Shown piece after piece: positions 5,802 through 38,036 of a DNA stretch of 41,259 nucleotides. This stretch comes from an uncultured Bacilli bacterium (GTDB lineage Bacteria > Bacillota_I > Bacilli_A > RF39 > UBA660): contig CANQHO010000004.1 of the NCBI GenBank assembly GCA_947623815.1, forward strand, positions 1-41,259, read 5' to 3'. Within the stretch, counting starts at the first letter, position 1, and the number at the start of each line of letters is the position of its first letter. Below the pieces are notes generated by a model that worked only from the letters and a program-made list of their open reading frames with translations, made no database searches and was not told the DNA's origin. The translations under genes were made by a program, and so were the position numbers.

Positions 5802-6830
5802 TTATCTAATTTTATTTTGATTATTCAAATTTACTAAAATTTCTTTTATATCTTCACTAGCAATTTCATATTCATGTCCGCCTGGATATTCTTTCAAAAT
5901 TATGTTGTAATTTAATTCATTTATTATTTTCTTAGTTTTTTTCCATCTAGTTTCTATATCAGTTCCTAAGAATTTATACATTTGAATGGCTTCATCATTT
6001 TGTAATATATCTTTATAAAGACACGTACCATCTTCACTTTGTTTATAACAATCATTTTTAGTGTCTTGTATCCCCATAAAATAAAATTGAGGAACTGTCT
6101 TATATACTTGTATTTTAAAATCATTTATTTCTTCAGCATTTCCAATACCTACTGGCCATAATAGTTTCTCATTATTTAATTCATTTAATGGTAACGTTAT
6201 AGTTCCATCTAATCCTCCAGCTATAACATATTTAACTATTTCTGGATGTAATAAAGTAAATCTATTAGCAAATTTAGCCGATGCGGAAAAGCCTGACATT
6301 ATTACTTTATCATCAATGTTTAAATTATATTGTTTCAATAATGCTTTAGCATGCTCTATCATTTTAATAACTTGTCTATCACATCTATAAATTCCCAATT
6401 TTTTCAATATGTTTTCATCTTTTTTATTAAATATACTATTACTTGATAACATATGATTAAAAAAAGTTTTTCCATGATATCTTAATCTTGGAAATAAAGG
6501 ATATAAAATTGGATAATTACTTGTTTGTTCATTTAATTTATATATTTGTTCTCTTAAAAATAATTTTTTTACATCATCAACGGCTTCTTGAATTTTAGTA
6601 TTTCTATCTTCTTCTTTTAAAATTGGAGTTGAATTTATAGAATTTGAACCATTTACAATAATAGTTGAATTTTTATTAACTGAAAATGGGATAAATAATA
6701 AATATGGGTAATTAAATCCTAAATCAGGATTACTATCAACTGTAACTTTATAACCACCATTACTAATACAGTAACTATCACAATTATTTATAATATCAAT
6801 TTTACAATTATTAGAAGTATTTTCTTTCAT
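5802..6830 (-). CDS. alpha/beta-hydrolase-like esterase
   Basis: 342 residues without signal peptide or membrane segment, so probably cytoplasmic. A nucleophile elbow reads GFSAS at 180-184 (Ser182), inside VIMSGFSASAKFANRF and followed by a Leu-His-Pro-Glu segment typical of esterase/depolymerase-like hydrolases. A late His sits in GGHEY (His about 319), and Asp in MGIQDTKND near 258 is a possible acid. The triad assignment is inference from motif spacing. The substrate is unknown. Several Cys pairs lie near the N-terminus (CKID, CDSYCIS). The ATG has AAAAGGAG upstream. The next gene upstream is S41-type peptidase copy 1, so both may act on peptides or esters. Confidence 0.65.
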   Translation of the reverse strand: MKENTSNNCKIDIINNCDSYCISNGGYKVTVDSNPDLGFNYPYLLFIPFSVNKNSTIIVNGSNSINSTPILKEEDRNTKIQEAVDDVKKLFLREQIYKLNEQTSNYPILYPLFPRLRYHGKTFFNHMLSSNSIFNKKDENILKKLGIYRCDRQVIKMIEHAKALLKQYNLNIDDKVIMSGFSASAKFANRFTLLHPEIVKYVIAGGLDGTITLPLNELNNEKLLWPVGIGNAEEINDFKIQVYKTVPQFYFMGIQDTKNDCYKQSEDGTCLYKDILQNDEAIQMYKFLGTDIETRWKKTKKIINELNYNIILKEYPGGHEYEIASEDIKEILVNLNNQNKIR

Positions 6831-6897: not shown

Positions 6898-8067
6898 TCA
6901 TTTATAACTTTTTTCATTGATTATGTTTATTGCTTCTTGTTTTTGTCTATCAAAATTATCAATATAATCTTCCATTTTATTTTCAATAAAATAATCTGGT
7001 TCAAAGATATTAGGCTTTAAATATTTATGATTATATTTATTATCCTTGAATTTTTTAAATTCTTCTTTAGTAGTTATTATGTGAACACCATCTTTTTTAT
7101 CAAAATAAATATATTTAACTGATATAATTAAAACAAAATTATCAAAATGGTGGACATTTATATGTCCAAAAACATTAAAAGCAGTTCCTATTTTAGTTCC
7201 AACAAATTTACTTCCTATATTACTTAAATCCACTATAGCAAGACTTCCTGATGAAAATACTTTTCCATCAACCAAAGTAACAACTTTTTTTCCTTTTAAA
7301 AATTTTATTAAAGGCTTTATAATACGAGAATCTCCACCTGTATTTCCTCTTAAATCAATTATAAACTTATTTATATTATTATTTTTTGACAAAACTGATA
7401 TTTTATCTATCAATTCTAGCATTTGATTATGATAATTCTCATGACATGAATTATAAACTATGTAAATAATATCATCTATTACTTCAAAATAATAATTTTG
7501 TTTTGGTTTACTTGGTCCTAGTGAATATTTTTCTTTTGTTTTTATTTTTTTATTTATTATATTATTATTTAATAATATTTTAAAATTAAAAATATCTACA
7601 TTATTATCAATAGATGGTAATGTTTTTAGTATTTTATCATTATAAAAAATATTTTCAATACATGACGTTAGATATTCATCAGTTGAATAAACTACTACTT
7701 TTTTTATTTCTTGAATCAATTGTTTTATTTCTATATTATTTACTTCTAAAACTTGACCAAACAATATATCTTTATTTTCTTCATCAGTTCTAATTATGTA
7801 TAATTTATTATTCAAATATCTAAATCTTAATGATAAAGATGATGTATTTTTTTCCCAAACTAATTTTGTATGTGAATCAAAACAGTCAAATATTTTTTTT
7901 ATTATTAAGTTAAATACATAATATAAATCATAATCATCTTTAATTTTATATTTTTCTAAAATTTCTTTTATAAAAGTTTCTAAATCTTTTTTAGTTATAT
8001 TGAAATACATATCTAAATGGTTTTCTTCTACTAGCTTTAACATTTCATTTAGTTTATCTATATACAT
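6898..8067 (-). CDS. S41-family (C-terminal-processing-type) peptidase, copy 1
   Basis: 389 residues with no signal peptide, so probably cytoplasmic, unlike exported CtpA proteases. The S41 core is visible: FIIDLRGNTGGDSR at 235-248 and KVFSSGSLAIVDL at 269-281, where Ser273 occupies the nucleophile position of the FSSA/FSSG motif. IGSKFVGTKIG is the following conserved loop. A PDZ-like GQVLEVNNIEIKQLI segment lies at 104-118. The N-terminal helical region (residues 1-70) is nearly the same as in the copy at 20067-21245. The ATG follows AAGGAG. The promoter carries repeated TTGTTATAAC palindromes. Substrate unknown. Confidence 0.75.
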   Translation of the reverse strand: MYIDKLNEMLKLVEENHLDMYFNITKKDLETFIKEILEKYKIKDDYDLYYVFNLIIKKIFDCFDSHTKLVWEKNTSSLSLRFRYLNNKLYIIRTDEENKDILFGQVLEVNNIEIKQLIQEIKKVVVYSTDEYLTSCIENIFYNDKILKTLPSIDNNVDIFNFKILLNNNIINKKIKTKEKYSLGPSKPKQNYYFEVIDDIIYIVYNSCHENYHNQMLELIDKISVLSKNNNINKFIIDLRGNTGGDSRIIKPLIKFLKGKKVVTLVDGKVFSSGSLAIVDLSNIGSKFVGTKIGTAFNVFGHINVHHFDNFVLIISVKYIYFDKKDGVHIITTKEEFKKFKDNKYNHKYLKPNIFEPDYFIENKMEDYIDNFDRQKQEAINIINEKSYK

Positions 8068-8649: not shown

Positions 8650-8681
8650 CTTAATCTTGTTTTATCAAGTTAATTATTTTT
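8650..8681 (+). terminator. possible bidirectional terminator between convergent genes
   Basis: CTTAATCTTG (8650-8659) and CAAGTTAA (8666-8673) pair with one bulged base around TTTTAT, followed by a T-rich stretch on the + strand. It lies between the convergent stops at 8593 and 8670. The stem is weak. Confidence 0.3.
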
Positions 8682-10181
8682 ATCTTTTAAAATAATATTT
8701 TTTAATTCCTTAATAAATATAGATTTTTTATAGAATGGACTTAAAATATAAACTTTATTTTTAGTCCTTGTTAGGGCGACATAAAAAAGTCTTCTTTCTT
8801 CTGCATATTGATATGTTTCATTATTTATATAATTTAAATATAATGGTTCTTTTATTTGTGATGGAAAACCTAATAATTCATTTTTCATATTTATTATAAT
8901 GACATTGTCATATTCTAATCCTTTGGATTTATGAACTGTCATATATTTGGCTTGATAATTTTTATATTCAATTATTTCATTTTTTCTAATTATAATTTCT
9001 TTATCTTTTAATAAATTTATATCTTGATTATTACGTCCTAATATTAAAATTTTTCCTTTTAATTTTGGTAATAAATTTTTTATTGTTTGACTAATAGATA
9101 TATAATATAAAAATATTATAGGTTTATCATCTTTTTTATTAGATTTTAAATTTTTTTTAATTTGATTGGGATTTTTTAAAATAAATTTAGTTGTATAATC
9201 TAATAATTTTTGACTATTACGATAAGTATTTACTAGATACATAATACTAGAATATGGAAAATACAATTTAAAGTTAGTGAATAAATCTATTCTGCTTCCA
9301 GAAAATCCATATATACTTTGCCAATCATCACCGACGGCTAATAATTTTGCTTTAGTTTGATTTATTATTGCTTTAATTAACTGATATCTTATAAAGGATA
9401 TATCTTGATATTCATCTATAATAATATATTTATAATTTTTATATTTATGGTTTTTTATTAAGTTTGTTGCTTGGATAATCATCTCATTATAGTCAATCAT
9501 ATTTTTATCTTTTAATATTTTTTTATATTGTTGATAACATAATAAAGATAAATGATAAAACTTTTTTAAAAATATATTTTTTTCTTTATTTTTTAATTCA
9601 ACTATTTTATCAATAGTATAATTATTACATATAATTACATTTAAAAAATGTAATATTTGTTTTTCATAAATAATATTTTCTTTTTTTAATTGTTGTTTAA
9701 TAGTTGATTTAATTACTTGTAATAATAAATCATCGGCGGCAATTTTAACATTTTTATTAAAGTGTCTAATTATTTTTAATCCTAAACTATGAAAAGTAGA
9801 AATTTCAATTTTATCACTATAAATTAAAAGTTTTTCTTTTAATTGTTTAGCTGACTTTCTAGTAAATGATATACATAGTATTGCTTCAGGATCTATTTGT
9901 TTTTTTAAAAGTAAATATTTTATTTTACCTTGAATAGTTGTGGTTTTTCCACTACCCGCTCCCGCTATTAGTAATACTGCTTCTTCTTCTTTTAATATAC
10001 ATTTCTTTTGATAGTAATCTAAACTTATTTTATCTGATAGTTTAAATATTTCATCGTTGATATTATTTTTTATATATTGTCTATTGTGTTTTTCAATTTC
10101 TTTTTTGATTTTTAATTTATTATTCGATTTTTTTAAATATTTTTCCATTTCTAATTTTGATACATAATGATTTAATTGCAT
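8670..10181 (-). CDS. UvrD/PcrA-like superfamily 1 helicase, short form
   Basis: 503 residues. SF1A motifs in order: Walker A GAGSGKTT at 74-81, FTRKSAKQLKEKL (Ia), IIIDEYQDIS (II, Walker B), VGDDWQSIYGFSGS (III), VNTYRNSQ (IV), TVHKSKGLEYDNV (V) and RRLFYVALTRTKNKVYIL (VI). All are intact, so it is probably an active ATP-dependent 3'-5' DNA translocase. UvrD and PcrA have about 700-750 residues; here the accessory 1B/2B insertions are reduced and there is a 50-residue basic N-terminal extension (MQLNHYVSKLEMEKYLKKSN). It resembles stand-alone accessory helicases more than the housekeeping PcrA. The gene is monocistronic. Its exact role is unknown. Confidence 0.85.
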   Translation of the reverse strand: MQLNHYVSKLEMEKYLKKSNNKLKIKKEIEKHNRQYIKNNINDEIFKLSDKISLDYYQKKCILKEEEAVLLIAGAGSGKTTTIQGKIKYLLLKKQIDPEAILCISFTRKSAKQLKEKLLIYSDKIEISTFHSLGLKIIRHFNKNVKIAADDLLLQVIKSTIKQQLKKENIIYEKQILHFLNVIICNNYTIDKIVELKNKEKNIFLKKFYHLSLLCYQQYKKILKDKNMIDYNEMIIQATNLIKNHKYKNYKYIIIDEYQDISFIRYQLIKAIINQTKAKLLAVGDDWQSIYGFSGSRIDLFTNFKLYFPYSSIMYLVNTYRNSQKLLDYTTKFILKNPNQIKKNLKSNKKDDKPIIFLYYISISQTIKNLLPKLKGKILILGRNNQDINLLKDKEIIIRKNEIIEYKNYQAKYMTVHKSKGLEYDNVIIINMKNELLGFPSQIKEPLYLNYINNETYQYAEERRLFYVALTRTKNKVYILSPFYKKSIFIKELKNIILKDKNN

Positions 10182-11016: not shown

Positions 11017-11052
11017 AAAAAAAAGAAAAATCAAACGTATGTTTTTCTTTTT
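11017..11052 (-). terminator. intrinsic terminator of the 11052-11261 gene
   Basis: AAAGAAAAA (11022-11030) and TTTTTCTTT (11042-11050) form a stem around an ACGT-containing loop, and the minus strand then runs into TTTTTTT. It may act in both directions. It separates the small coiled-coil gene from the SDR gene. Confidence 0.55.
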
Positions 11053-11261
11053 TATTTTATTTTTATGTGGTGGATTTCTACTTTTTTACCCACCGATTGT
11101 TCTTCCATAGTTAAGAAACTTAATATAGTTCTTCTAACACGTCGTAATTTTTGTAATTCTTGATAGTTATTTGTATAAAATCCCTTTTCATCTTTTGCTT
11201 TGTACTGTTCTAATTCAGCTATTCTTTGGTTTGTTCGCAATAGTTCTTCTTGATAATTCAT
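11052..11261 (-). CDS. small coiled-coil protein, 69 aa
   Basis: The start is the ATG at 11261, because AAAGGGGG lies at the right distance before it. An in-frame ATG at 11297 falls within the promoter -10 region and is unlikely. The product is charged and mostly helical (LLRTNQRIAELEQYKAK, YQELQKLRRVRRTILSFL) with a short His-containing tail (EIHHIKIK). It resembles the many small uncharacterised Bacillota proteins with a two-helix hairpin. It is transcribed alone from a near-consensus promoter and has its own terminator. Confidence 0.65.
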   Translation of the reverse strand: MNYQEELLRTNQRIAELEQYKAKDEKGFYTNNYQELQKLRRVRRTILSFLTMEEQSVGKKVEIHHIKIK

Positions 11262-11287
11262 AAAAATCCCCCTTTCAAACGGGATAT

Positions 11288-11316
11288 ATGATATCACTTT
11301 TATATTGCTTTGTCAA
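11288..11316 (-). promoter_or_regulatory. promoter of the 69-aa protein gene
   Basis: On the minus strand: -35 TTGACA (11311-11316, consensus), 17-nt spacer, -10 TATCAT (11288-11293). It lies about 30 nt downstream of the helicase stop. Confidence 0.7.
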
Positions 11317-11343: not shown

Positions 11344-14094
11344 TTATTTGGTTTTTCGATTTAATTCATCAATAAATTTATCGTTGATATCTTCTTTAGA
11401 TGGTAAATCACTTTCATCATATAAGTCTAAGTAAGTTATAACCCTATTTAATACTTCTTTTTGTTTAGCCTTAATATTTTTTTCAGTTATTTCTTCTTTT
11501 TGTAGTTTATCATCAGTATTTTTAGTAAACCAAATCATACCTATTTTGTTTAATAGCTCTATTTTCTCTAAAGATAGTTGTCCTGTTTTTCCTTTATATC
11601 TATTTCTTTGTCTGCTTATCCATGCTCCAAGTTTAACTTTACCATTTTCAGCATAATTGATTCCATCGTTAGTTTTAAAATCTTGAGATATTTTTAAATT
11701 CCCATAATGTTCATAATACTTTTTAGCTAGTTCATAATTTCTATTCCATTTGTCTTCTAATAAATCTTTTATAAATCCTATTTCTTCTAATTTTTTCTTT
11801 TTCTCTTCAGATAAATTTTCATAGTTGTACCTTTGATTATTTAGCCAAATTCCAAGTTTAACTTTACCATTTTCAGCATAATTGATTCCATCGTTAGTTT
11901 TAAAATCTTGAGATATTTTTAAATTCCCATAATATTCATAATACTTTTTAGCAAATTCATAATTTCTATTCCATTGTTCATCATTTAAATCTTTTATAAA
12001 TCCTATTTCTTCTAATTTTTTCTTTTTCTCTTCAGATAAATTTTTATAGTTTTCCCTTTGAGATGATATCCATCTTCCTAGTTTAATTTCTCCATTTTCA
12101 TCATGATTGATTCCATCGTTAGTTTTAAATTCTATACTAATATCTGAATTTCCATAATATTCATAGTATTTTTTCGCTAGTTCATATTTTCTATTCCATT
12201 GATTCTTATACAAATCTTCTATAAATCCTATTTCTTTTAATTTTGCCTTTTTCTCTTCAGATAAACTTTCATAGTTGTACCTTTGAGTAGAAAGCCAAAT
12301 TCCAAGTTTAACTTCTCCATTTTCAGCATAATTGATTCCATCATTAGTTTTAAATTCTATGCGAATATCTGAATTTCCATAATATTCATAGTATTTTTTC
12401 GCTAATTCATAATTTCTATTCCATTTGTATTCAAGTAGATTTTTTATAAATCCTATTTCTTCTAATTTTTTCTTTTTCTCTTCAGATAAACTTTCATAGT
12501 TGCACCTTTGAATGGAAAGCCAAACTCCAAGTTTAATAAATCCGTTGGCATCTTCATTAATTCCATCACTAGTTTTAAATTTAAATGGTATTCCTAAATT
12601 TCCATAATGTTCATAATATTTTTTAGCCAATTCATAATAATCATCCCAAGTCATTTTTAAACGGTCAAACACATATTTTATTATTTGATATAAATCTTCA
12701 TTAAGCATTTCAATATCGAAAGTGGCATCTTTAATATATATTTTTCTATTCTGATTATTTCCTTGTTTAACTATTTCTGATATCCTAGTTTTTAAATTAT
12801 TTTCCAGTTCTTTAATAAAATCAATATTACCAACTAAATCTATTATAATAGGGGCTAATAATCTTTCAATCATTTCTTCCTTTTCAGTATTCTCTTTTAT
12901 TTCAATACCCCTTTTTTTACATAGTAACTCTAACTCTTCTATACTTTTTAAAGCTAATTTATCATACTCTTTTTTAGTATCTCCTCTAACCGATAAAGCA
13001 CGACCTAATTGTTCAAAAAAAACTATATCTGAATTAGTAGACCTACCCATTATGACCCCATCTAATCTTGGGGCATGTACTCCTTCATTATACTGATTTT
13101 TCGCAAACATAATTCTCAGTTTATTATCTACTTTTTTTCCATTTAAATCTAGGTCATTATAAAAGGCTTGTCTATTTTCTTTCCCTTCTTTTCCCATATC
13201 ACTTGTTGTTATATAAAATTCAAAATCATTATCTGTTAAACCCATTTCATATAACCAATTTTTAGCTTCTTTGATTATATCTTCTATTTCATTTACCCCT
13301 TTTTCTGTTTTGACCGGGCAAAAATAGATATACTTCCCATCTTTTTTAATATTTTGTTTAAAAACATCTTTGATACTTAAAGCTTCATGGATTCTTTTTT
13401 TTATATCTTTTAATAATTTTGATAATTCTTGATAATCTTTAGAATTATGATCTAATTTTTCTAATCTATTTTCAATATATTCTTCTTTTTTTAATAAATG
13501 AACATAGGCACTTTTATAAATTGGTTTGGGTAAAATACCATCTATCAAAGCATCACATAAATCATATCTACTTACTACTTTATTGGAAAATATCTCATCT
13601 GTTTCTGTATCGGCCATATCTCTTTCATAACTTGTATTTCTATCTCTTACTGTATAAGCCGTTAAGCCAATTACTTTTATATTAGGATGAGTTTGAATAA
13701 TTAAATCGACCATCTTTCCCCAAATGGGGGCACCTAAATGATGAAATTCATCTAATATCAAAATATCAATATCTAAATTTTTTATTTCTTCTAATGATAA
13801 ATTAATTAAACTTTGATAAGTTCTAAAAGATAAATTAGGAAAATCTTTTTTTCTATCTAAATTAGGATTTTCTTCGATTACCTTTTCAATATGTTCAATT
13901 ATACTATTTGTCGGTGCTAAGTATAATGCTTTTTTATTTTTATTATCATATAAATATTGTATAGCATTATAACTTTTTCCTGTTCCAGTCGCATGAACTA
14001 TGGCAACAATATTATCTTTTTTTAAACCATCTTTTAATTTTTCATAAGATTTTATATTATGATCATATAAACCTACTACATTATAATTATTCAT
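11344..14094 (-). CDS. SF2 DEAD/DEAH-type helicase with five tandem helicase-associated domains
   Basis: 916 residues from the ATG at 14094. An in-frame TTG at 14103 is an unlikely start. The N-terminal 370 residues are a superfamily 2 motor: HATGTGKS at 34-41 (Walker A), DEFH at 115-118, LTAYT at 144-148, and QLGRAL at 362-367 (motif VI). This resembles the Res subunit/type III restriction helicase group. From residue 483 on come five consecutive units of 75 residues, each of the form WNRxYELAKKYYEYYGN...FKTNDGI...LGxWLxxQR...LSEEKKxKLEEIGFI. They match the helicase-associated (HA, PF03457) domain. A charged 60-residue tail follows. No nuclease motif is evident. It overlaps the 3' end of the small upstream gene by 8 nt. 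Confidence 0.85.
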   Translation of the reverse strand: MNNYNVVGLYDHNIKSYEKLKDGLKKDNIVAIVHATGTGKSYNAIQYLYDNKNKKALYLAPTNSIIEHIEKVIEENPNLDRKKDFPNLSFRTYQSLINLSLEEIKNLDIDILILDEFHHLGAPIWGKMVDLIIQTHPNIKVIGLTAYTVRDRNTSYERDMADTETDEIFSNKVVSRYDLCDALIDGILPKPIYKSAYVHLLKKEEYIENRLEKLDHNSKDYQELSKLLKDIKKRIHEALSIKDVFKQNIKKDGKYIYFCPVKTEKGVNEIEDIIKEAKNWLYEMGLTDNDFEFYITTSDMGKEGKENRQAFYNDLDLNGKKVDNKLRIMFAKNQYNEGVHAPRLDGVIMGRSTNSDIVFFEQLGRALSVRGDTKKEYDKLALKSIEELELLCKKRGIEIKENTEKEEMIERLLAPIIIDLVGNIDFIKELENNLKTRISEIVKQGNNQNRKIYIKDATFDIEMLNEDLYQIIKYVFDRLKMTWDDYYELAKKYYEHYGNLGIPFKFKTSDGINEDANGFIKLGVWLSIQRCNYESLSEEKKKKLEEIGFIKNLLEYKWNRNYELAKKYYEYYGNSDIRIEFKTNDGINYAENGEVKLGIWLSTQRYNYESLSEEKKAKLKEIGFIEDLYKNQWNRKYELAKKYYEYYGNSDISIEFKTNDGINHDENGEIKLGRWISSQRENYKNLSEEKKKKLEEIGFIKDLNDEQWNRNYEFAKKYYEYYGNLKISQDFKTNDGINYAENGKVKLGIWLNNQRYNYENLSEEKKKKLEEIGFIKDLLEDKWNRNYELAKKYYEHYGNLKISQDFKTNDGINYAENGKVKLGAWISRQRNRYKGKTGQLSLEKIELLNKIGMIWFTKNTDDKLQKEEITEKNIKAKQKEVLNRVITYLDLYDESDLPSKEDINDKFIDELNRKTK
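11530..12648 (-). repeat. five tandem 225-bp in-frame repeats in the helicase gene
   Basis: The Trp codons that open each unit lie at 12648, 12423, 12198, 11973 and 11748, exactly 225 bp (75 codons) apart. The last unit ends at a Trp codon at 11530. Units 4 and 5 are almost identical over about 120 bp (11850-11973 against 11625-11748), while unit 1 is more divergent. This is the pattern expected from recent unequal crossing-over or gene conversion. Confidence 0.95.
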
Positions 14095-14326
14095 TATAAT
14101 CAACCTTTTCTATATCAATAAATTCTTTGCCATTTATTACCTGTTTTATAATATTAACCTTATCATCTTTTAATATTTGAATATTATAATTATTCTGTTC
14201 TTCTTCTATTTTAATTATTTCATCATCTACTTGAACTTTAAAACCTATCTGATTACTTGAATATATATCTTCATTTTCTTTAACTGGTATATATACTTCT
14301 TTTACAATTCCTCTCTTTACTTCCAT
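14087..14326 (-). CDS. small hypothetical protein upstream of the repeat helicase
   Basis: 79 residues from the ATG at 14326, which has AGGTGATG just upstream. An extended in-frame start at 14371 would place a hydrophobic leader over the promoter region and is not supported. The product is acidic and strand-rich (GIVKEVYIPVKE, IGFKVQVDDEIIKIEE, KEFIDIEKVDY), suggesting a small beta-barrel or similar fold. No family is recognised. Its TAA overlaps the helicase ATG (ATGAATAA), so the two are translationally coupled and probably made together. A role as partner or regulator of the helicase is inference. Confidence 0.6.
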   Translation of the reverse strand: MEVKRGIVKEVYIPVKENEDIYSSNQIGFKVQVDDEIIKIEEEQNNYNIQILKDDKVNIIKQVINGKEFIDIEKVDYNE

Positions 14327-20066: not shown

Positions 20067-21245
20067 TTACCTTCTGTAATTTTTTTCATTAATTATATTT
20101 ATGGATTCTTGTTTTTGTCTATCAAAATTATCAATATAATCTTCAATTGTATTTTCTATTAAATAATCTGGTTCAAAGATATTAGGTTCAAAATATTTAT
20201 GATTAACTGCATTATTTTTAAACTTTTTAAAATCTTCTTTATTTTTTATACAATATAATGAATATTTATTATTTTCTTTCGGAAAACAGAAATATTTATT
20301 AGCTACACATAAAGTAAATTCATCATAAGGAAAAACCTTTATATTACCAAAAGCATTTAAATCGGTAGCTATTTTTGTTCCTACAAATTTACTTCCAATA
20401 TTATATAAATCAACTATCGCAAACCTACCAGATGAAAATACTTTTTCATCTATTAAAGTTACTATTTTTTTATCTTTTAAAAACTCTATCAACGGTCTTA
20501 TAATACGAGAGTCTCCACCACCATTCCCTCTTAAATCAATTATAAACTTATTTATATTATTTTCTTCGGCCAACTTTGATATTTTATCTACTAATTCTAA
20601 CATTTGGTTTTGATAATTTTCACGACAAGATTTATACACAATATAAATAATATCATCTATTAATTCAAAATAATAATTCGGTTTAATATTTTTAGAAGTT
20701 AATAAATAATGTTCTTTTTGATTTAAAATTATATTTGTTTTTTTATTTCCTAATAATATTTCAAAATTAAAATCACGGATATTATTATCAATAGATGGCA
20801 ATGATTTTATTATATTTGCTCTGTAAAATGAACCTTCAATATTACTACTCAAATATTCTTTAGTTGAATAAGCTGTTATTGCTTCTTTTTCTTTAATTAA
20901 TTTTTTTATGTCTACATTGTTTATCTTTAAAACTTGTCCATACAAAAATTCTTGTTTTTCTTGATCTATTTCTGTTATATATAATTTATCATCTATATAC
21001 TTAAAGCGTATAGGTAAAAATATTCCATCTTTCCAATATAACTGGGTATGAGAATCAAAACGACCAAATATTTTTTTTATTATTAAGTTAAATACATAAT
21101 AAAAATCATAATCATCTTGGATTTTATATTTTTGTAAAACTTCTTTTATAAAAACTTCTAAATCTTTTTTAGATATATTGAAATACATATCTAAATGATT
21201 TTCTTCTACTAGTTTTAACATTTCTTTTAATTTATCTATATACAT
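20067..21245 (-). CDS. S41-family (C-terminal-processing-type) peptidase, copy 2
   Basis: 392 residues, a close paralogue of the 6898-8067 gene, near-identical over the first 70 residues (LKLVEENHLDMYFNI). The S41 core is kept: FIIDLRGNGGGDSRIIRPLI and KVFSSGRFAIVDLYNIGS, with Ser in FSSG as nucleophile candidate. There is no signal peptide, so a cytoplasmic site is expected. The C-terminal PNIFEPDYLIENTIEDYIDN is shared with copy 1, while the middle (residues 75-190) and a Cys/Phe-rich loop near 310-325 differ, suggesting altered substrate specificity. The ATG follows GGAGG. It lies downstream of the broken subtilase gene on the same strand. Confidence 0.75.
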   Translation of the reverse strand: MYIDKLKEMLKLVEENHLDMYFNISKKDLEVFIKEVLQKYKIQDDYDFYYVFNLIIKKIFGRFDSHTQLYWKDGIFLPIRFKYIDDKLYITEIDQEKQEFLYGQVLKINNVDIKKLIKEKEAITAYSTKEYLSSNIEGSFYRANIIKSLPSIDNNIRDFNFEILLGNKKTNIILNQKEHYLLTSKNIKPNYYFELIDDIIYIVYKSCRENYQNQMLELVDKISKLAEENNINKFIIDLRGNGGGDSRIIRPLIEFLKDKKIVTLIDEKVFSSGRFAIVDLYNIGSKFVGTKIATDLNAFGNIKVFPYDEFTLCVANKYFCFPKENNKYSLYCIKNKEDFKKFKNNAVNHKYFEPNIFEPDYLIENTIEDYIDNFDRQKQESINIINEKNYRR

Positions 21246-27363: not shown

Positions 27364-27388
27364 CAAAAAAATGCTTAAAACTAAGCAT
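27364..27388 (-). terminator. intrinsic terminator of the ribosomal superoperon
   Basis: 7-bp stem ATGCTTA (27371-27377) / TAAGCAT (27382-27388) with a 4-nt loop, followed on the minus strand by six U or more. It overlaps the TAG stop of rplQ at 27381. Confidence 0.85.
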
Positions 27389-27734
27389 CTTCTTCCACAA
27401 CTTCTAAAATTACCATTAAAGCATCATCACCACGACGTTCTGATAATTTTAGAATTCTTGTATATCCACCATTACGTTTTGCATAACGAGGAGCTAATAC
27501 ATCAAACACTTTTTTAGTTGCTTCCTTATCATTTTGTAAGAATGCCAAAACTTTTCTTCTTGAAACTAAAGAACCATTTTTACCATACGTAATCATTTTA
27601 TCAAAAAACTTACGTACTTCTTTAGCTCTAGTCTCAGTTGTTTCAATTCTTTCGTTCATGATTAAGTCTTTAGTTAAATTAGCTAACATACTTCTTCTAT
27701 GTTTGTTATCACGACCTAATTTTCTATATGCCAT
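27381..27734 (-). CDS. rplQ: ribosomal protein L17
   Basis: 117 residues, the usual length of bacterial L17 in the large subunit. The start [20 protein letters not shown] is the family hallmark and the end [18 protein letters not shown] fits too. It is the last gene of the operon, 14 nt after rpoA, and the terminator overlaps its stop. In many Bacillota the next genes are the ECF transporter ATPases; here a + strand GNAT gene converges instead. Confidence 0.97.
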
Positions 27735-27748
27735 AATTACCTCCTTTA

Positions 27749-28699
27749 TTAGTCATCTTCCCGGAATTTAAGTCCCATATCTTTAATTTTGTCAATAACT
27801 TCTTTTAAAGATTTCTTACCTAAATTACGAATTTTCATCATTTCTAACTCTGATTTTTCTGTCAAATCTCCAAGAGTGTTAATACCTGCTCTTTTTAAAC
27901 AATTATATGCTCTAACCGAGAAATCTAAATCATCAATAGATGTTTCTAATTTCTTAAGTTTGCTATCTTCTTGTTTAGCAGTCATAATTCCAGTCATATC
28001 AGCAATTGCACTTAGTTCAGTTAAAATATTAAAGTGTTCCATTAAAATTTTAGCACCTAAAGCCAAGGCTTCTTCTGGTCTAATTGAACCATTAGTTTTA
28101 ACATGCATAATTAACTTATCATAGTTATTATTTTGCCCAACCCGAGCATCTTCTACATCATAACTAACCCGTTCAATAGGTGAATAAATAGCATCAATTG
28201 GAATATACCCAACTGGAGCATCTTCTAAAAACTTTTTATTTTCATTTGATTGTACGTATCCACGTCCATTAGCAACCATCATTTCCATTTCAAGTTTTCC
28301 ACCTTTGGCAATAGTTGCAATAACTTGATCTGGATTTAAAATTTCCACATCAGAATCTGCTTCAATATCAGCAGCTGTAACAACTTTTTCTTCAGAAACA
28401 GAAAGATGGATAGTTTTAACACTTTCAGAATTGTTCTTTAAAACAACATTTTTTAAATTAAGAATAATAGCAGTTACATCTTCAACAACACCGTCAATTG
28501 TTTGAAACTCATGCATTACTCCTTCAATTTTTACAGCAACTATTGAACTTCCAGGCATACTTGATAATAAAACTCTTCTTAAAGCATTACCTAAAGTTCT
28601 ACCAAAACCTCTTTCTAAAGGTTCTAATTCAAATTCTCCATAATTATTATTTTCTATATAATTAGTTATTTTATATATTGGTTTATCAAAATTCAACAT
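27749..28699 (-). CDS. rpoA: RNA polymerase alpha subunit
   Basis: 316 residues from the ATG at 28699 ([13 protein letters not shown]). It is preceded by AAGGAG, whereas an upstream in-frame start near 28750 lies in rpsK. The N-terminal dimer domain ([20 protein letters not shown], and [13 protein letters not shown]) assembles RNA polymerase, and the C-terminal domain ([35 protein letters not shown]) contacts activators and UP elements. Length is normal. It sits 20 nt after rpsK and 14 nt before rplQ. Confidence 0.98.
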
Positions 28700-28719
28700 G
28701 ATTTTCCACTCCTTTTCTT

Positions 28720-29103
28720 TTATCCACGTGGACGTTTTGGTGGACGGCATCCGTTATGTGGTACTGGAGTAACATCAGTAATAGATGTAACCTCCAAATT
28801 TGCAGTTTGTAGAGATCTAATAGCTGTTTCTCTACCTGAACCAAGTCCTCTAACATAGACAGACACTTTTCTCATTCCCATATCATACGCAGCACGACCT
28901 GCTGCTTCTGCCGCCATACCAGCAGCATATGGAGTTGATTTTTTACTTCCTTTAAATCCTAATGTTCCAGCTGAGGCCCAACTAATAACATTACCATCAT
29001 TATCACTTAAAGTTACTATTGTATTATTAAATGTTGAATGAATGTATGCTTTACCTTCTGGCACATTCTTTTTAACTTTACGTTTTCTTGGTTTATAAGC
29101 CAT
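28720..29103 (-). CDS. rpsK: ribosomal protein S11
   Basis: 127 residues, the usual length. Family signature: [36 protein letters not shown], and [13 protein letters not shown] at the end. Small-subunit platform protein that contacts mRNA at the exit site. ATG follows GAGGT, 16 nt after rpsM. Confidence 0.98.
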
Positions 29104-29119
29104 AATTAACCTCCTTTAA

Positions 29120-29488
29120 CTATTTCTTCTTATTAGCTACGGTTTTCCCTTTTCCGCCTCTACGTGTTCTTGCATTACGGTTTGTTCTTTGTCCACGAAC
29201 AGGAAGACCTTTTCTATGACGAGAACCACGATAATCGTTTATTTCCATATGAGTTTTTATATTCATATTTACTTCACGACGTAAATCACCTTCTGTAGTA
29301 TATTTATCTACTTGTTCACGAATTCTAGCTTGTTCCTCGTTAGTTAAATCTTTTGCTTTTTTGTTTTTATCAACATCAGCATCTTTTAAGATTTTATTAG
29401 ATAAACTTCTTCCAATACCATAAATATATGTTAGGGCAATTTCAGCTCTTTTATTATCTGGTAATTCAATTCCTTTAATACGTGCCAT
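29120..29488 (-). CDS. rpsM: ribosomal protein S13
   Basis: 122 residues. [20 protein letters not shown] and the basic C-terminal tail ([34 protein letters not shown]) are diagnostic. It sits in the head of the small subunit near the P-site tRNA. ATG is preceded by AGGAGGTG, and the gene starts 11 nt after rpmJ. Confidence 0.98.
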
Positions 29489-29499
29489 AAAACACCTCC

Positions 29500-29613
29500 T
29501 TAACCTTGTACTTGTTTATGTTTTGGATTTTCACAAATTACTCTTTTTTTCCCTTTACGTGTAATTACTTTACATTTATCACACATAGGTTTCACTGACG
29601 ATCTTACTTTCAT
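29500..29613 (-). CDS. rpmJ: ribosomal protein L36
   Basis: 37 residues, [20 protein letters not shown] followed by a basic end with C and H ([10 protein letters not shown]). The zinc-binding set CxxC...C....H is complete, so this is the zinc-containing (C+) L36 form. ATG at 29613 has AGGAGG upstream. The 97-nt gap before it holds a structured region (29631-29708), unlike the other gaps in this operon. Confidence 0.95.
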
Positions 29614-29630
29614 ATTATCCCTCCTATTTA

Positions 29631-29708
29631 GTTCACATATTTAATTACTGTAAACCTGGTAAAATACGTGGTTCTATCGCATTTTACCAGAAATGTGAAC
29701 GATTACAG
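29631..29708 (-). ncRNA. structured RNA region between infA and rpmJ
   Basis: In the minus-strand mRNA a perfect 10-bp stem, CTGGTAAAAT (29681-29690 complement) with ATTTTACCAG (29656-29665 complement), closes a 15-nt loop. It is enclosed by a perfect 8-bp stem of GTTCACAT/ATGTGAAC (29693-29700 with 29631-29638). A third pair, CTGTAA/TTACAG (29703-29708 with 29648-29653), overlaps the outer stem, so it forms either a pseudoknot or an alternative fold. No U-run follows, so it is not a terminator. It ends about 18 nt before the rpmJ start, suggesting a control or processing element. Confidence 0.55.
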
Positions 29709-29710
29709 AA

Positions 29711-29983
29711 TTACAATTTTCTCCATATAATACGTCCTTTAGTTAAATCATATTCTGATAATTCCAAAGTAACTGTATCTCCCGGTAATATTTGAATATA
29801 GTTCATTCTTATTTTTCCAGAGCGATGCGCTTGAACAATATGACCACCGGCAATTTCTACTTTGAATTGTCCGCCTGGAATAACTTCTAAAACTTTTCCT
29901 TCTATTTCAATTGAATTAGAACTTTTTGTACCAACTGTTTTCTTTGGGTTGGTTTTTTTATTTTGAAATTGTTTTTTTGCCAT
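29711..29983 (-). CDS. infA: translation initiation factor IF-1, N-terminally extended
   Basis: 90 residues. The core is a clear IF-1 OB-fold: [39 protein letters not shown] and [13 protein letters not shown]-1 binds the A site of the small subunit with IF-2 and IF-3. Typical IF-1 has about 72 residues. Here about 20 extra basic residues come first ([18 protein letters not shown]), with no other ATG before the core and a good AGAGGTG site before this start. The extension is thus probably real. It begins 4 nt after map. Confidence 0.95.
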
Positions 29984-29987
29984 TTAA

Positions 29988-30734
29988 TCACCTCTTTGTC
30001 AATATGGTATACCCGTCTTTGGTAACCAAAACTGTATGTTCAAAGTGAGCCGATGGTTTATTATCTTCTGTTACAATAGTCCAATCATCATCCAATTCAG
30101 CGACATAACGTTTACCTGATGTTAACATCGGTTCTACAGCAATGGTCATTCCGGCTTTTAAAATGGGACCGGTCTTTTCTTTTCCATAATTTGGTACATC
30201 GGGATCTTCATGAACTTGATTACCAATTCCGTGTCCTACTAATTCTCTTACTACCCCTAAATGATGTTCTTTCGCATATTTTTCAATAGCGTGACTAACA
30301 TCACCTAAGTGGACACCATCTTTAATAACAGATAATCCTTCATATAATGCTGCTTCTGTATATTGTAATAAATATTCTTTTTCTTTATTTATTTTACCAA
30401 CAGCATAAGTCCAAGCAGAATCTCCATGATAGCCTTTATAACAAGCCCCAATATCCAAAGTAATGATATCTCCTTCTTTTAATTTTCTATTACTTGGTAT
30501 TCCATGAACAACTTCTTCATTTATCGATGTACAAATTGCTCCAGGAAAACCATATAAATGGTAAAAAGAAGGAGTTGCTTCATGACTAACAATATAATCA
30601 TAAGCTAATTGTTCTATTTTTTTTGTTGTAATACCTGGTTTAATGTATTTCTTTAAATAATTATGGGTGTCTCCAACTATTTTTCCAGCTTTTTTCATAA
30701 GTTCTATTTCATAGTCAGATTTTATTGAAATCAT
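29988..30734 (-). CDS. map: type I methionine aminopeptidase
   Basis: 248 residues. Removes the initiator Met from nascent proteins. All five metal ligands can be placed: Asp in TLDIGACYKGYHGD (two Asp), His in LVGHGIGNQVHEDP, Glu in VEPML and Glu in the C-terminal stretch. The His79-type residue is in EEVVHGIPS. Length is normal for the short bacterial type. It overlaps adk by 4 nt (ATGA) and is followed by infA after 4 nt. Confidence 0.97.
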   Translation of the reverse strand: MISIKSDYEIELMKKAGKIVGDTHNYLKKYIKPGITTKKIEQLAYDYIVSHEATPSFYHLYGFPGAICTSINEEVVHGIPSNRKLKEGDIITLDIGACYKGYHGDSAWTYAVGKINKEKEYLLQYTEAALYEGLSVIKDGVHLGDVSHAIEKYAKEHHLGVVRELVGHGIGNQVHEDPDVPNYGKEKTGPILKAGMTIAVEPMLTSGKRYVAELDDDWTIVTEDNKPSAHFEHTVLVTKDGYTILTKR

Positions 30735-31372
30735 ATTTCCTCCAATATTTTACTTATTTGAGTAAATGTTTCTTGTTTATCGATGTTTTCTACTTCTTCT
30801 AATAATCCTTTATCCTCATAATATTTAATTAGTGGCAAAGTATCATTTAAATAAGTATCATAACGTTTTAAAAATACTTCTTCGGTATCATCATCTCTTC
30901 TGATCAATTCATTTTGACAATTATCACAAATATTTTCATTTTTAGGTTTATTAAAGTAAATATTATATACTTTTTTACAATTTGGACAAACTCTTCTACC
31001 AATTGTTCTTTTTAAAGATATATCTTTAGAAACTGTTATATAAAGAACTTTATCAATTTTTTGATTTAAATTTGATAGAATTTTTTCTAATTCAACTGCT
31101 TGTGTAATAGTTCTTGGAAATCCATCAAAAATATATCCTTTTTCATTTCCACTACTTAATTCTTCTTTTACTAAAGATATTATATAGTCATCACTAATTA
31201 ACTGACCACTATTCATTTTTTCTTTTAACTGTTTTGCTTCGTCATCATCTTTTTTTAAAACGGCTCTTAATAAATCTCCTGTTGATAGTTGTTTTAAACC
31301 ATACTTTTCAACTAACAATTCAGCCATAGTTCCTTTTCCCGCTGCCGGCGGAGCTAAAAGTATAATATTCAT
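30731..31372 (-). CDS. adk: adenylate kinase, zinc-lid type
   Basis: 213 residues; interconverts ATP, AMP and ADP. P-loop APPAAGKGT at 7-15 differs from the usual GxPGxGKGT by an Ala at the first Gly and at one inner Gly; the Lys and Thr are kept. IFDGFPRT, GRRVCPNCKKVYN and ICDNCQNELIRRDDD are the AMP and LID regions. Four Cys (CPNC...CDNC) mark the zinc-binding lid of Gram-positive enzymes. It follows secY with no gap and overlaps map by 4 nt. Confidence 0.97.
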   Translation of the reverse strand: MNIILLAPPAAGKGTMAELLVEKYGLKQLSTGDLLRAVLKKDDDEAKQLKEKMNSGQLISDDYIISLVKEELSSGNEKGYIFDGFPRTITQAVELEKILSNLNQKIDKVLYITVSKDISLKRTIGRRVCPNCKKVYNIYFNKPKNENICDNCQNELIRRDDDTEEVFLKRYDTYLNDTLPLIKYYEDKGLLEEVENIDKQETFTQISKILEEI

Positions 31373-32659
31373 CTATGATTGTCTCCGTCTTCTAGTTCTT
31401 TGTTTTTTAAAACTACGAGATATTAATTCACTTTCTAATTGCTTATATGCTTCAAGTGAAACACCAACAACAATTAAAAGTCCGGTTCCACCTATACTGA
31501 TTTGAGTCGAAAGATTTGATACGGCTTCAAATACAATTGGAATTCCCGCTATAATAGCAAGTGATAAAGCACCGACTGTTGTGATATTGGTAATTACTTT
31601 TTTTAAATAAGTTGAAGTTTCTTTACCTGGTCTAATTCCGGGTATAAAACCACCATTTTTATTTAAAGTATCAGATATTTCTTCTGGCTTTAATTGCATA
31701 TAGGCATAGAAGTATGCAAAGACAAATATAGCAATCATATAAATAATGAATCCAGTTAATGATGTTGTTACTAAATATTTATTGACAAATAATCCTAAAC
31801 CACTATTTTTACTAAATACTTTTGCTATAAGCGAAGGTATTGATAGTAACATAGAAGCAAAGATTACCGGCATTACTCCACCAACATTTAGTTTAAATGG
31901 AATATAACTTTGTTGTTTACCATAGGCATTAGTAGATTTATTAGCATATTGAATAGGTATTCTTCTTTCACTTGTTTCAACAAATACTACACCTATTAAG
32001 ATGGCTAAATAAAGTAATACAAATAACGCAAATTTAGTTATTCCTAAGGCCATTGCTTGAGTACTAGCGGTTGTAAATAATTCATTCCATAAACCAACAA
32101 ACATAGTTGGAATACTAGCTATTATACCGGCCATGATGAGTAAAGATACACCATTACCAATTCCTTTTCTAGTAATTTGATCTCCCATCCATAAGCAAAG
32201 GGCAGTACCGGCTGTCAATATTGTAGCATAAGTTAAATGATCAACTAATTGCCCACCTTTGACAAAAGCATATGAATATATAAGACCTTGAATAAATGCC
32301 ATTATAATTCCTAAATATCTAGTAATTCTATTTATTTTATCTCGACCTGTTTGTCCTTGTTTAGCAAGTTCTGAAAAATAAGGGACAATATCCCATTGTA
32401 ATATTGATGTGATAATTGAGGCACTAATGTAAGGTGACACTCCTAATGCAAAGATGGAAAATTGTGATAAAGCTCCTCCACCCATAACATTTAAAAGTTC
32501 TAGAAACCCTAAACTACTAGTGTCAACTGAATCTTTTACCCCAGGAACGACAATTGTTGTTCCTAATTTAAAGATAAAAAGCATAAAGAATGTAAAATAT
32601 ATTCTTCTTCTTAAATCTTTATTTTGAGGAGTAAATATTTGCTTTAATGTGGCAAACAT
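31373..32659 (-). CDS. secY: preprotein translocase subunit SecY
   Basis: 428 residues with ten predicted membrane helices; forms the protein-conducting channel in the membrane. Typical starts and turns are present: RRRIYFTFFMLFIFKLGTTI, VSPYISASIITSILQWDIVP, RIPIQYA and NKNGGFIPGIRPGKETS. The tail ends in a basic run (KKQRTRRRRQS). Length is normal. It begins 1 nt after rplO and ends directly at adk. Confidence 0.98.
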   Translation of the reverse strand: MFATLKQIFTPQNKDLRRRIYFTFFMLFIFKLGTTIVVPGVKDSVDTSSLGFLELLNVMGGGALSQFSIFALGVSPYISASIITSILQWDIVPYFSELAKQGQTGRDKINRITRYLGIIMAFIQGLIYSYAFVKGGQLVDHLTYATILTAGTALCLWMGDQITRKGIGNGVSLLIMAGIIASIPTMFVGLWNELFTTASTQAMALGITKFALFVLLYLAILIGVVFVETSERRIPIQYANKSTNAYGKQQSYIPFKLNVGGVMPVIFASMLLSIPSLIAKVFSKNSGLGLFVNKYLVTTSLTGFIIYMIAIFVFAYFYAYMQLKPEEISDTLNKNGGFIPGIRPGKETSTYLKKVITNITTVGALSLAIIAGIPIVFEAVSNLSTQISIGGTGLLIVVGVSLEAYKQLESELISRSFKKQRTRRRRQS

Positions 32660-32660
32660 T

Positions 32661-33104
32661 TTAAATCACCTCTGCTTTTCCACCTAATTTTTCTATTTGT
32701 TCTTTAGCTGTTTCTGAGAAACAGTGAGCTTTTACAGTCAATTTTTTTTCTAGTTTTCCATTACCTAGTACTTTAACTCCCGCAAGTTGTTTTTTTAAAA
32801 CACCCATTTCTTTTAATATCTCTGGAGTAACAACTGCTCCATCTTCAAATTTATTTAAATCGCTTAAGTTAAGTACTGCATATTCTTTTTTAAATAAGGC
32901 GTTAGAAAATCCTCTTTTTCCAATACGACGGAATAATGGAGTTTGACCACCTTCAAAGCCTACTCTAACTCCTCCACCGCTTCTAGAGTTTTGTCCTTTG
33001 TATCCACGTCCGGCAGTTTTACCTTGTCCACTACCAATTCCTTGCCCTTTTCTCTTTTTGGAATGGGTTGCTCCTTCTGGAGTTTTAATCGTATGTAATT
33101 TCAT
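32661..33104 (-). CDS. rplO: ribosomal protein L15
   Basis: 147 residues from the ATG at 33104 ([20 protein letters not shown]), supported by AGGAAATC upstream and by the family start; an in-frame start farther up lies in rpsE. The Gly-rich N-terminus ([17 protein letters not shown]) and [19 protein letters not shown] are diagnostic. It starts 1 nt after rpsE, with no rpmD between them. Confidence 0.97.
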
Positions 33105-33105
33105 A

Positions 33106-33672
33106 TTAGATTTCCTCCACTTTCTTACCACGAAGTCTAGCAACTTCTTCTTTGGTTTTTTGTACTTTTAAAGCTTTTAATGTTGCATACGCTACATTGA
33201 TTTTAGTGTTTGAACCTAATGATTTAGATAAAATATCTTTGACACCGGCTAATTCAAGTACATAACGTACTGCACCACCAGCCTTTATTCCAGTACCTTT
33301 TGAAGCTGGTTTTAATACAACACGACTAGCGCTTTGAATACCAATTGCTTCATGAGGTATGGTTCTTTCATCAACAAGTGCAACTTTAACAATATTTTTT
33401 GTGGCTGCTTCGCTGGCTTTTCTAATAGCGTCTGGTACTTCATTGGCTTTACCTGTACCAATTCCTACTTTACCTTTTCTATCTCCTACAACAACAGTTG
33501 CCGCAAAACGGAAGTTACGTCCACCTTTCGTTACTTTAGTTACTCTTTTGATGTCAATTACTTCTTCATCATAAAGTTTAACTTTTTTAGGACGTGGATC
33601 TCTTTTGCGATTACCTCTTGGTTTTCTTTTAGGAGATGCTTCAGTTTCTTTTACTTTCTTTGTTTCTTCCAC
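33106..33672 (-). CDS. rpsE: ribosomal protein S5
   Basis: 188 residues. Family core: [37 protein letters not shown], and [19 protein letters not shown]. The start is GTG at 33672 behind AGGAGGAA. The N-terminus has about 25 additional charged residues (METKK-like, with [12 protein letters not shown]) and the C-terminus a short basic end ([10 protein letters not shown]). Small-subunit protein involved in decoding fidelity. Confidence 0.97.
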
Positions 33673-33686
33673 GCAATTTCCTCCTT

Positions 33687-34049
33687 TTAGAATTCTAATC
33701 CGTTTTCGCGTGCAGCTTCAGCTAAAGCTTTTACACGTCCATGATATAGATATCCACCTCTATCGAAAACGACTTTACTAATATTATCTTTTTTTGCTCT
33801 AGTTGCTAATAAAGCACCAACTTTTTTAGCAGCTTCGACATTTCCACCATTTTCTAGTTTTAATTCTTTATCAATTGATGAAGCACTAACAAGTGTTACG
33901 CCTTTTTCATCATCAATAATTTGAGCAAAAATGTTTCCATTGGATCTAAACACACTTAGTCTTGGAACATTAGTTGTTCCACTTATTTTTTCCCGTACTC
34001 TTTTGTGTCTAGCTTGACGTACATCATTACGAGCTACTTTTTTTATCAT
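33687..34049 (-). CDS. rplR: ribosomal protein L18
   Basis: 120 residues. [40 protein letters not shown] and [20 protein letters not shown] are the family's 5S rRNA-binding signatures. Length is normal. ATG follows GGAGAG, 25 nt after rplF; 14 nt then leads to rpsE. Confidence 0.97.
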
Positions 34050-34074
34050 AAGTATTTCTCTCCTTTACTAAACA

Positions 34075-34605
34075 TTATGCCGCTTTTTTACCGACTTTAC
34101 GATTTATGTGTTCATCGGCATAACGAATTCCTTTTCCTTTGTAAGGTTCTGGTCTTCTTATATCTCTTATTTCAGCAGCAAATTTTCCAACTAATGCTTT
34201 ATCGATACCTCTAATAAATAATTCAGTATTGCTTGGAGCTTCTAAAGTTATTCCTTTTGGTGCTTCAACAATAACTGGATGAGAATATCCGGCATTTACT
34301 GTTAGTTTACTTCCGGAAACTTGGAAACGATAACCAACACCTACTATTTCTAATTTCTTTTCAAATCCTTTTGTGACACCATCGATCATGTTTTTTATTA
34401 GTGCATTAGCAGTTCCATGAAATTTTTTATAAGTGTCATCTTTTCTGTTAACAACTATTTGATTATCTTGTTGTTCAACAGTTATGTTTTCATTGATAAT
34501 TGTAGAAAGTTCTCCTTTAGGACCAACTACTTTCACACAATTACCGTCGATAGTTACTTGTACACCTTCAGGTATATCTAATTTTCTTAAACCAATTCGA
34601 CTCAT
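34075..34605 (-). CDS. rplF: ribosomal protein L6
   Basis: 176 residues, the normal length. MSRIGLRKLDIPEGVQVTID and the C-terminal PEPYKGKGIRYADEHINRKV are diagnostic. It sits at the base of the large-subunit stalk, near the factor-binding site. It begins 16 nt after rpsH. Confidence 0.98.
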   Translation of the reverse strand: MSRIGLRKLDIPEGVQVTIDGNCVKVVGPKGELSTIINENITVEQQDNQIVVNRKDDTYKKFHGTANALIKNMIDGVTKGFEKKLEIVGVGYRFQVSGSKLTVNAGYSHPVIVEAPKGITLEAPSNTELFIRGIDKALVGKFAAEIRDIRRPEPYKGKGIRYADEHINRKVGKKAA

Positions 34606-34621
34606 AGTTTATCCTCACTTT

Positions 34622-35014
34622 CTACCAAATGTAAGCTAAAACTTCTCCACCTAATGATTGTTTTCTTGCTTCTTTATCAGTCATCAATCCTTTTGATGTT
34701 GATATAATGGCAATTCCTAAACCATTTAATACAGTTGGGATTTCTTCGGTTTTAGCATAGACACGTAATCCTGGTTTTGAAATTCTTTTTAATCCAGAGA
34801 TGATACGTTCTTTTGTATCGCTGTATTTTAATGTTAGTACTAGGATACTTTGAACATTACTTTTTTTTACTTTGTAATCAGCAATAAATCCTTCGTTTTT
34901 TAAAATAGCAGCAATTCCTTCTTTCATTTTTGAAGTTGGCATTTCAACTTCTTTATACTTCATTTGATTCGCATTACGAATTCTTGTAAGCATATCTGCG
35001 ATTGGATCTGTCAT
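34622..35014 (-). CDS. rpsH: ribosomal protein S8
   Basis: 130 residues. [40 protein letters not shown] and the end [20 protein letters not shown] match the family. In many bacteria S8 is the translational repressor of the spc operon, acting at rplE. I cannot recognise its binding structure by eye here. Confidence 0.98.
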
Positions 35015-35028
35015 CTAATCCCTCCTTC

Positions 35029-35214
35029 TTACCAACTAGATTTTTTCATTCCAGGGATTTGTCCTTTATACGCTAATTCTCTAAAGCAAATACGACAAAT
35101 TCCATATTTTTTAAGAACAGCATGTGGTCTTCCGCAACGAGAACATCTAGTATATTCACGCACTTTAAACTTTGCTTTTCTTTTTTGTTTTTCTTTTAAG
35201 CTTTTCTTAGCCAT
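35029..35214 (-). CDS. rpsN: ribosomal protein S14, zinc type
   Basis: 61 residues, the short zinc-binding form: [20 protein letters not shown] holds four Cys (CxxC...CxxC). [20 protein letters not shown] is the N-terminus. This form (often called rpsN1 or type Z) is typical of Bacillota. It lies 15 nt after rplE. Confidence 0.98.
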
Positions 35215-35229
35215 ATTTTCCTCCTAATC

Positions 35230-35769
35230 TTACTTTTTAAAAGGCATTCCAAACCCTTTTAAAAGAGCAAGTGCTTCTTCATTTGTTTTTGCTGTTGTAA
35301 CAAAAACAATATCCATACCACGTAATTTTACAACATCATCATAGTTTATTTCTGTAAAAATTAGTTGTTCTGTTAAACCTAAAGTATAGTTTCCTCTTCC
35401 ATCAAATGACTTTGGAGAAATTCCTCTAAAGTCTCTAACCCGAGGAAGTGTAATACTAATTAGTTTATCTAAAAAGTTATACATATTTTCTCCTCTTAGA
35501 GTAACTTTACAACCAATTCCTTGTCCGGCTCTAATTTTAAAACCAGCGATTGATTTTTTTGATTTTGTAATAATTGGTTTTTGTCCAGTTATTGCTTCTA
35601 AATCACGAGCAGCGGCTTCAAGTAATTTTGAATTACTTGCTCCATCTCCTACTCCAATGTTGACAACTATTTTTTCTAATTTTGGTGCTTCCATTACGTT
35701 TTTATAAGCAAATTGTTCTTTTAAACTAGGTACAATCTCTTCTATATATTTTGCTTTTAGGCGGTTCAT
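35230..35769 (-). CDS. rplE: ribosomal protein L5
   Basis: 179 residues from the second ATG of ATGATG (35769), which matches the family start MNRLKxKYxxEI and is about 6 nt from GGAGG; the first ATG would add one Met. [36 protein letters not shown] and [17 protein letters not shown] are diagnostic. Binds 5S rRNA. It follows rplX by 18 nt. Confidence 0.97.
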
Positions 35770-35787
35770 CATTTCCCTCCTTCCAAA

Positions 35788-36096: not shown

Positions 36097-36112
36097 GTCT
36101 TATCCTCCTTGG

Positions 36113-36481: not shown

Positions 36482-36499
36482 ATTTATCCTCCTTTACAA

Positions 36500-38021: not shown

Positions 38022-38036
38022 GAGTATTCCTCCTTA

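Follow-up and report, generated by a model that had tools for sequence, protein, structure and literature searches.

Helicase-associated (HA) domains are annotated on helicases, where Pfam itself suggests nucleic-acid binding, but we know of no job established for them. The window analysed here, a contig of 41,259 nucleotides from an uncultured gut bacterium of the Bacilli, holds a helicase gene in which such domains form an exact tandem array.

A helicase with five HA units of constant length

ORF and Pfam analysis revealed a protein of 916 amino acids composed of an SF2 motor, five HA domains (PF03457) and a C-terminal tail (Table 1). The translated motor contains ATGTGKS, DEFH, LTAY and QLGRALSVR, which we take to be SF2 motifs I, II, III and VI; on its motor match and these motifs the protein is classified as a predicted SF2 helicase/translocase. 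Each HA unit begins in frame with a Trp residue (amino acids 483, 558, 633, 708 and 783) at a period of exactly 225 bp (75 codons), and Tandem Repeats Finder recovered the same period with a score of 1310, far above chance. The helicase matched PF03457 over five stretches (E = 1.4e-75; 250 bits; cut-off 28.4), and all five units passed the curated cut-off singly. The sequence-only reading, which had described five in-frame 225-bp units starting with Trp and had assigned them to HA domains on a helicase, was thus correct in position and description. Sequence likeness to a solved chain was found for 2kta ('Putative helicase'; E = 8.5e-5).

Table 1. Positions in the window of the helicase gene, its parts and the adjoining small genes. 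Patch residues are those defined in the text (loop/helix 2).
Feature	Position	Strand	Basis
Whole helicase gene, 916 aa	11344..14094	-	ORF, Pfam
SF2 (ResIII/DEAD) motor, aa 1-482	12649..14094	-	PF04851 (E 5.3e-13) and PF00270 (E 5.3e-07), both above cut-off
HA unit 1, patch FK/VSICN (codons ~12580-12585 and within 12499-12525)	12424..12648	-	Pfam, unit alignment
HA unit 2, patch IE/ISTYN (codons ~12355-12360 and within 12274-12300)	12199..12423	-	Pfam, unit alignment
HA unit 3, patch IE/RSSEN (codons ~12130-12135 and within 12049-12075)	11974..12198	-	Pfam, unit alignment
HA unit 4, patch QD/INNYN (codons ~11905-11910 and within 11824-11850)	11749..11973	-	Pfam, unit alignment
HA unit 5, recombinant, patch QD/ASRNR (codons ~11680-11685 and within 11599-11625)	~11512..11748	-	Pfam, unit alignment, recombination tests
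C-terminal tail, retained in the two-unit orthologue	11344..11511	-	Translations
Small acidic protein A, 79 aa from the second ATG, overlaps the helicase start	14087..14326	-	ORF, neighbour comparison
81-codon ORF downstream, relative at the same place in G001; cassette membership uncertain	11052..11297	-	ORF, neighbour comparison

Nucleotide alignment of the five units, a check that had been proposed with the first description, gave 76-80% identity of unit 1 to units 2 to 4 and 83-87% among units 2 to 4 themselves. Units 4 and 5 were identical at 120 of their first 125 nucleotides, with an exact stretch of 83 bp in common, in agreement with the earlier remark that they differ at few positions over about 120 bp. 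Beyond these 125 nucleotides the two did not align, and the second half of unit 5 is different and longer. Unit 1, which had been singled out as divergent, is only mildly so; the real outlier is the second half of unit 5.

Unit number changes between species and the last unit is a mosaic

The genome to which the window belongs holds a second HA gene, on contig C11, with five diverged units; few genomes of the phylum have HA domains at all (2 of 392, this one included). A same-genus genome (G001) carries an orthologue in the same setting: it is preceded by a piece of an ABC transporter and by small protein A, and followed by a short-chain dehydrogenase and a UvrD-like gene. The motors of the two genes are 88% identical, but the orthologue has two units versus five. 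A scan of named genomes returned this orthologue as its sole match. Among 386 genomes drawn from the family, 44 had a motor match at E≤1e-20. The second congener, G002, had none in this search; there, another, unrelated frame adjoins the dehydrogenase gene, and the site is seen in part, with the contig ending 371 bases away.

Units were counted in the close motor matches (>500 bits; 28 loci). Seven loci whose contig runs out at or inside the array (G008, G083, G114, G283, G322, G374 and G396) and one with a broken frame (G208) were left out. The remaining 20 complete genes comprised 12 with five units, two each with six, seven and eight, and one each with two and four. Distant motor matches (<240 bits) were kept out of the array statistics, four such loci being fetched and scanned for units; the HA units of G012, G029, G030 and G036 were inspected and then left out of further analysis.

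The composition of unit 5 points to recombination. Its first part groups with unit 4 (17 informative sites versus 3), and the remainder with the final unit of the G001 orthologue (19 sites versus 3). The mosaic was significant in permutation tests (p = 5e-5; p = 4e-4 without hypervariable columns), indicating that unit 5 recombined with a unit 4-like unit after the two species parted. Across 19 arrays, between 0 and 40% of unit triplets were flagged at p<0.01 in a triplet test; because selection on the variable patch described below can also raise this figure, our claim of mosaicism is based on the unit 5 case. The proposal that the array is changing in copy number by recombination is supported between species, each represented by one genome, as seen in two versus five units at the same locus, two to eight units in complete genes, and the clear breakpoint in unit 5. 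Neither a constant unit number nor equally old units were found among the relatives.

About seven positions per unit diversify, probably under selection

In an alignment of 125 units from 28 genes or gene pieces, most columns were nearly uniform inside an array. At columns 22, 23, 41, 44, 45, 48 and 49, units of the same array differed almost as much as units of different arrays, and loop columns 52 and 53 behaved likewise. Of the seven positions (hereafter the patch), two fall in the motif I-P-x-x-F, and helix 2 (LG-x-W-I-xx-QR-xx) bears the other five on one face. The helix-2 columns span an arc of 140 degrees, which is as tight as 1.1% of six-column sets, for columns that were not chosen blind. 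Trp1, Tyr5, Tyr11, F-K-T, Gly29, Leu39, Trp42 and Gln46 are kept. In this alignment each unit combines a conserved scaffold with few variable positions, and 120 distinct seven-residue patch strings occurred among 121 units.

Unit pairs that were ≥55% identical and had ≥50 columns in common, from 22 arrays including partial ones, were used to calculate within-array pN/pS. This ratio reached 1.24 at the seven patch columns (bootstrap 1.05-1.51) versus 0.37 elsewhere, with similar pS (0.38 and 0.34, respectively). The patch value exceeded that of the rest in 20 of the 22 arrays; it was above 1 in 15, below 1 in six and undefined in one. The seven columns had first been picked by eye and by diversity, a bias that is answered in part by a split-half test over 16 genera, in which columns were picked on one half and tested on the other: the held-out values were 1.22 versus 0.37, and the patch value exceeded 1 in 494 of 500 splits.

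The patch is chemically distinct. Asp and Glu make up 3.5% of its residues, versus 23% at other variable columns and 8.3% (SD 0.7) expected from shuffled codons. Asn, Gln, Ser, Thr and His account for 44%, and Lys and Arg for 23%; Phe, Tyr and Trp are no commoner than at other variable columns. This composition would be expected of a nucleic-acid reader. The sequence-only reading had suggested that recognition-like units could make target binding adjustable, and this suggestion is strengthened: the variable positions form a small, fast-evolving and acid-poor set, as expected of recognition residues. Fold prediction, proposed at the outset for one and for five units, succeeded moderately for the single unit (mean pLDDT 73; helices at 2-15, 40-49 and 56-64) but not for the five-unit array (pLDDT 40). 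A fold search with the single-unit model found no similar fold.

Natural comparisons separate fast and conserved patches

Tandem paralogues in G066 have motors that are 98% identical, carry five and seven units, and have no patch string in common. Between the window gene and its G001 orthologue, the two end units differ at 12 of 14 patch residues and at 23 of 123 others. In tandem paralogues of Ruminococcus albus the patch was kept at 10 of 56 positions and the rest at 238 of 436 (p = 1e-7). Two Pseudomonas plasmid lineages gave the opposite picture, the patch (36 of 42 kept) being better preserved than the other positions (213 of 325; p = 0.008). Among four arrays of Streptomyces terminal helicases, conservation of the patch was roughly equal to or higher than that of the rest in all six pairs, significantly so in one, and the contrast with a 'frozen' patch is carried mainly by the one Pseudomonas comparison. 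Rapid change of the patch where genes have multiplied, and conservation no weaker than that of the other positions where a plasmid retains a single copy, would be expected of specificity residues.

Related HA proteins with 4 to 11 units are found on plasmids of Ruminococcus, Aneurinibacillus, Pseudomonas, Streptomyces and Rhodococcus. From 155 matching records 12 stretches were fetched, and eight arrays were used, with near-duplicates left out. In these eight distant arrays Asp and Glu made up 4.7% at the five helix columns versus 18.6% at other variable columns. Many other columns were equally variable there, and loop columns 22-23 were not strongly depleted of acidic residues (12%).

A small chromosomal cassette

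In at least 18 of the 28 close loci, a relative of protein A immediately precedes the helicase gene. A further protein of about 100 amino acids, protein C, is encoded directly downstream of nine (L084, L085, L076, L078, L074, L077, L081, L083 and L089). Protein C had 19 matches below E 1e-15 in the 386 genomes, 13 of them within the 25 genomes with a close motor match, and it also occurs in six genomes without one. The window locus has protein A and lacks protein C. Among the loci listed, the cassettes sit singly among varied, mostly housekeeping genes, and on inspection no defence island was noticed beside them. The chromosomal place of the cassette differs between genera.

No strong match of the helicase to a known anti-phage system was obtained with PADLOC (best match 38 bits over 54 residues), and neither protein A nor protein C matched a Pfam or PADLOC family above cut-off; a known defence system is disfavoured as the identity of the locus. 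Two scans of viral contigs found no viral relatives of the helicase, and among 50,697 phage records a single match covered the motor only.

Other genes of the window were noted in passing, all on the minus strand. The stretch 27381-41212 looks like the ribosomal-protein S10-spc-alpha cluster, with rpoA (27749-28750), secY (31373-32659) and L2 (38684-39514) recognised by Pfam and the rest by ORF order and size. At 8670-10181 lies a short UvrD-like helicase of 503 amino acids; its nearest NCBIfam model is DNA helicase IV, far below cut-off, and its matches to defence helicases such as GajB may reflect only a shared motor. Near the HA helicase are also two S41-peptidase-like proteins (6898-8067 and 20067-21245) and a protein without a Pfam match (5802-6830).

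Comparison with known recognition systems

PF03457 proteins have the same layout as the window protein, with tandem HA domains placed after an SF2 motor. Unlike in the known members, the window units are recently duplicated and homogenised, vary in number between close relatives, and bear a variable patch under selection. The open-access literature searched, which leaves out most subscription journals and preprints, yielded no relevant paper on HA repeat specificity or on such variable HA arrays; PF03457 itself appeared in a single paper on an unrelated subject.

Tandem zinc-finger proteins have variable residues on one helix face, grow their arrays and show positive selection on contact residues, and the window array resembles them in all three respects. 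It differs in that its units are of another kind, with no zinc ligands seen, and are bacterial and fused to a helicase. Type I restriction specificity subunits likewise combine quickly changing target recognition with a constant motor; unlike there, Pfam detected no nuclease or methylase domain in the helicase protein, and the proposed recognition would use many small repeats. TAL effectors and TALE-like proteins resemble the array in having near-identical repeats that differ at few positions and in a unit number that changes between genes. The likeness is one of logic and not of fold, with no sequence relation shown: TALE-like repeats have 30-43 residues and two variable positions, whereas the window units have 75 residues, about seven variable positions and a helicase attached. 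A published screen for TALE-like repeats was limited to 30-43 residues (PMC5472282), a range into which the period of 75 residues does not fall.

The array as a probable modular nucleic-acid reader

The explanation that we consider probable takes the HA array for a modular nucleic-acid reader, which through its patches would address an SF2 translocase. Each unit of about 75 amino acids would be a fixed scaffold presenting a small variable patch, formed by the I-P-x-x-F loop and the face of helix 2. By reading a composite target, the array would bring the motor to selected sites. Unequal recombination would add, remove and shuffle units while selection alters the patch, such that target specificity turns over and the motor stays constant. 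We infer from the sequence comparisons that the patch contacts nucleic acid and sets specificity, with double-stranded DNA as the target thought likeliest. As to its role, there are faint indications that this small chromosomal cassette (protein A, helicase and sometimes protein C) could be aimed at foreign or selfish DNA.

A different role, which would be compatible with the same reader mechanism, is that of a helicase serving transfer or a selfish element, comparable to Streptomyces TtrA, with the array reading the element's own DNA and its diversity separating competing elements. The ttrA gene lies near the ends of linear Streptomyces replicons and is needed for transfer of SLP2 (PMC8743542). 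We found four-unit HA helicases near the ends of linear Streptomyces plasmids that read inward, as does ttrA in that source, and these genes are presumably ttrA; HA helicases also occur on megaplasmids, and the shifting position of the cassette between genera would suit a mobile element. The window gene, unlike ttrA, does not appear to lie near the end of a linear replicon. It is a chromosomal gene that shares its 41-kb contig with rpoA, secY and the gene for ribosomal protein L2 (rplB), and the G001 locus is likewise near rpoA; its patch turns over, whereas the four Streptomyces arrays keep theirs. Among ORFs and Pfam matches no transfer or integrase gene was seen next to the window helicase. 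We regard this role as unlikely.

The patch might instead recognise proteins of a phage, a competitor or a partner, and have diversified in an arms race, the array serving as a protein-binding scaffold on the helicase. Surface patches involved in protein recognition are just as typically under positive selection, and the small partner proteins A and C are conserved. The acid-poor patch, rich in Asn, Gln, Ser, Thr and His together with Lys and Arg, suits nucleic acid better, however, and aromatic residues are not enriched in it, so that we consider protein recognition distinctly unlikely. Somewhat less credible still is that the HA units form a non-specific nucleic-acid clamp in an array homogenised by conversion, the variable positions being merely unconstrained. 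The homogenised scaffold columns and the strongly diverged HA arrays elsewhere would fit such a clamp, but it accounts poorly for held-out pN/pS values above 1, for an acidic content below that of shuffled codons, and for patch positions that are conserved in the Pseudomonas plasmid lineage.

Diversification by a diversity-generating retroelement is disfavoured and has very little credibility. The genome does contain one reverse-transcriptase gene (G000 contig C30, 12710-13312, L125, 330 codons), but a search of the genome, about 5% of which is missing, with the DNA of unit 3 gave nine matches, all within the two HA genes (contigs C4 and C11), and there is therefore no template repeat; moreover, one of six HA-bearing genomes tested (G373, with eight units) had no reverse-transcriptase match, and the patch also has Lys, Gln and Arg codons. 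That assembly error produced the array or its number of units is equally improbable even though such arrays are hard to assemble, as the seven of 28 loci broken at or inside them illustrate, because no two units are identical and the longest exact repeat is 83 bp, with an intact frame and a different patch in every unit.

Returning to the nucleic-acid reader, a wider reading can be put forward tentatively, at somewhat less than an even chance: HA repeats may be an unrecognised class of modular, rapidly re-specified recognition repeats, with a code of about seven residues per 75-residue unit and two to eight units addressing a motor that is re-aimed by recombination and selection. As part of the same tentative reading, and by analogy, such arrays might be the equivalent, built of protein alone, of a guide-addressed system. 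Should the patch determine sequence preference, addressable binding of DNA or RNA would gain a new repeat scaffold in the HA unit, and these bacteria would possess a system in which the target of a helicase turns over more quickly than the motor itself. A clue would also follow as to how TtrA and other plasmid and terminal helicases locate their sites.
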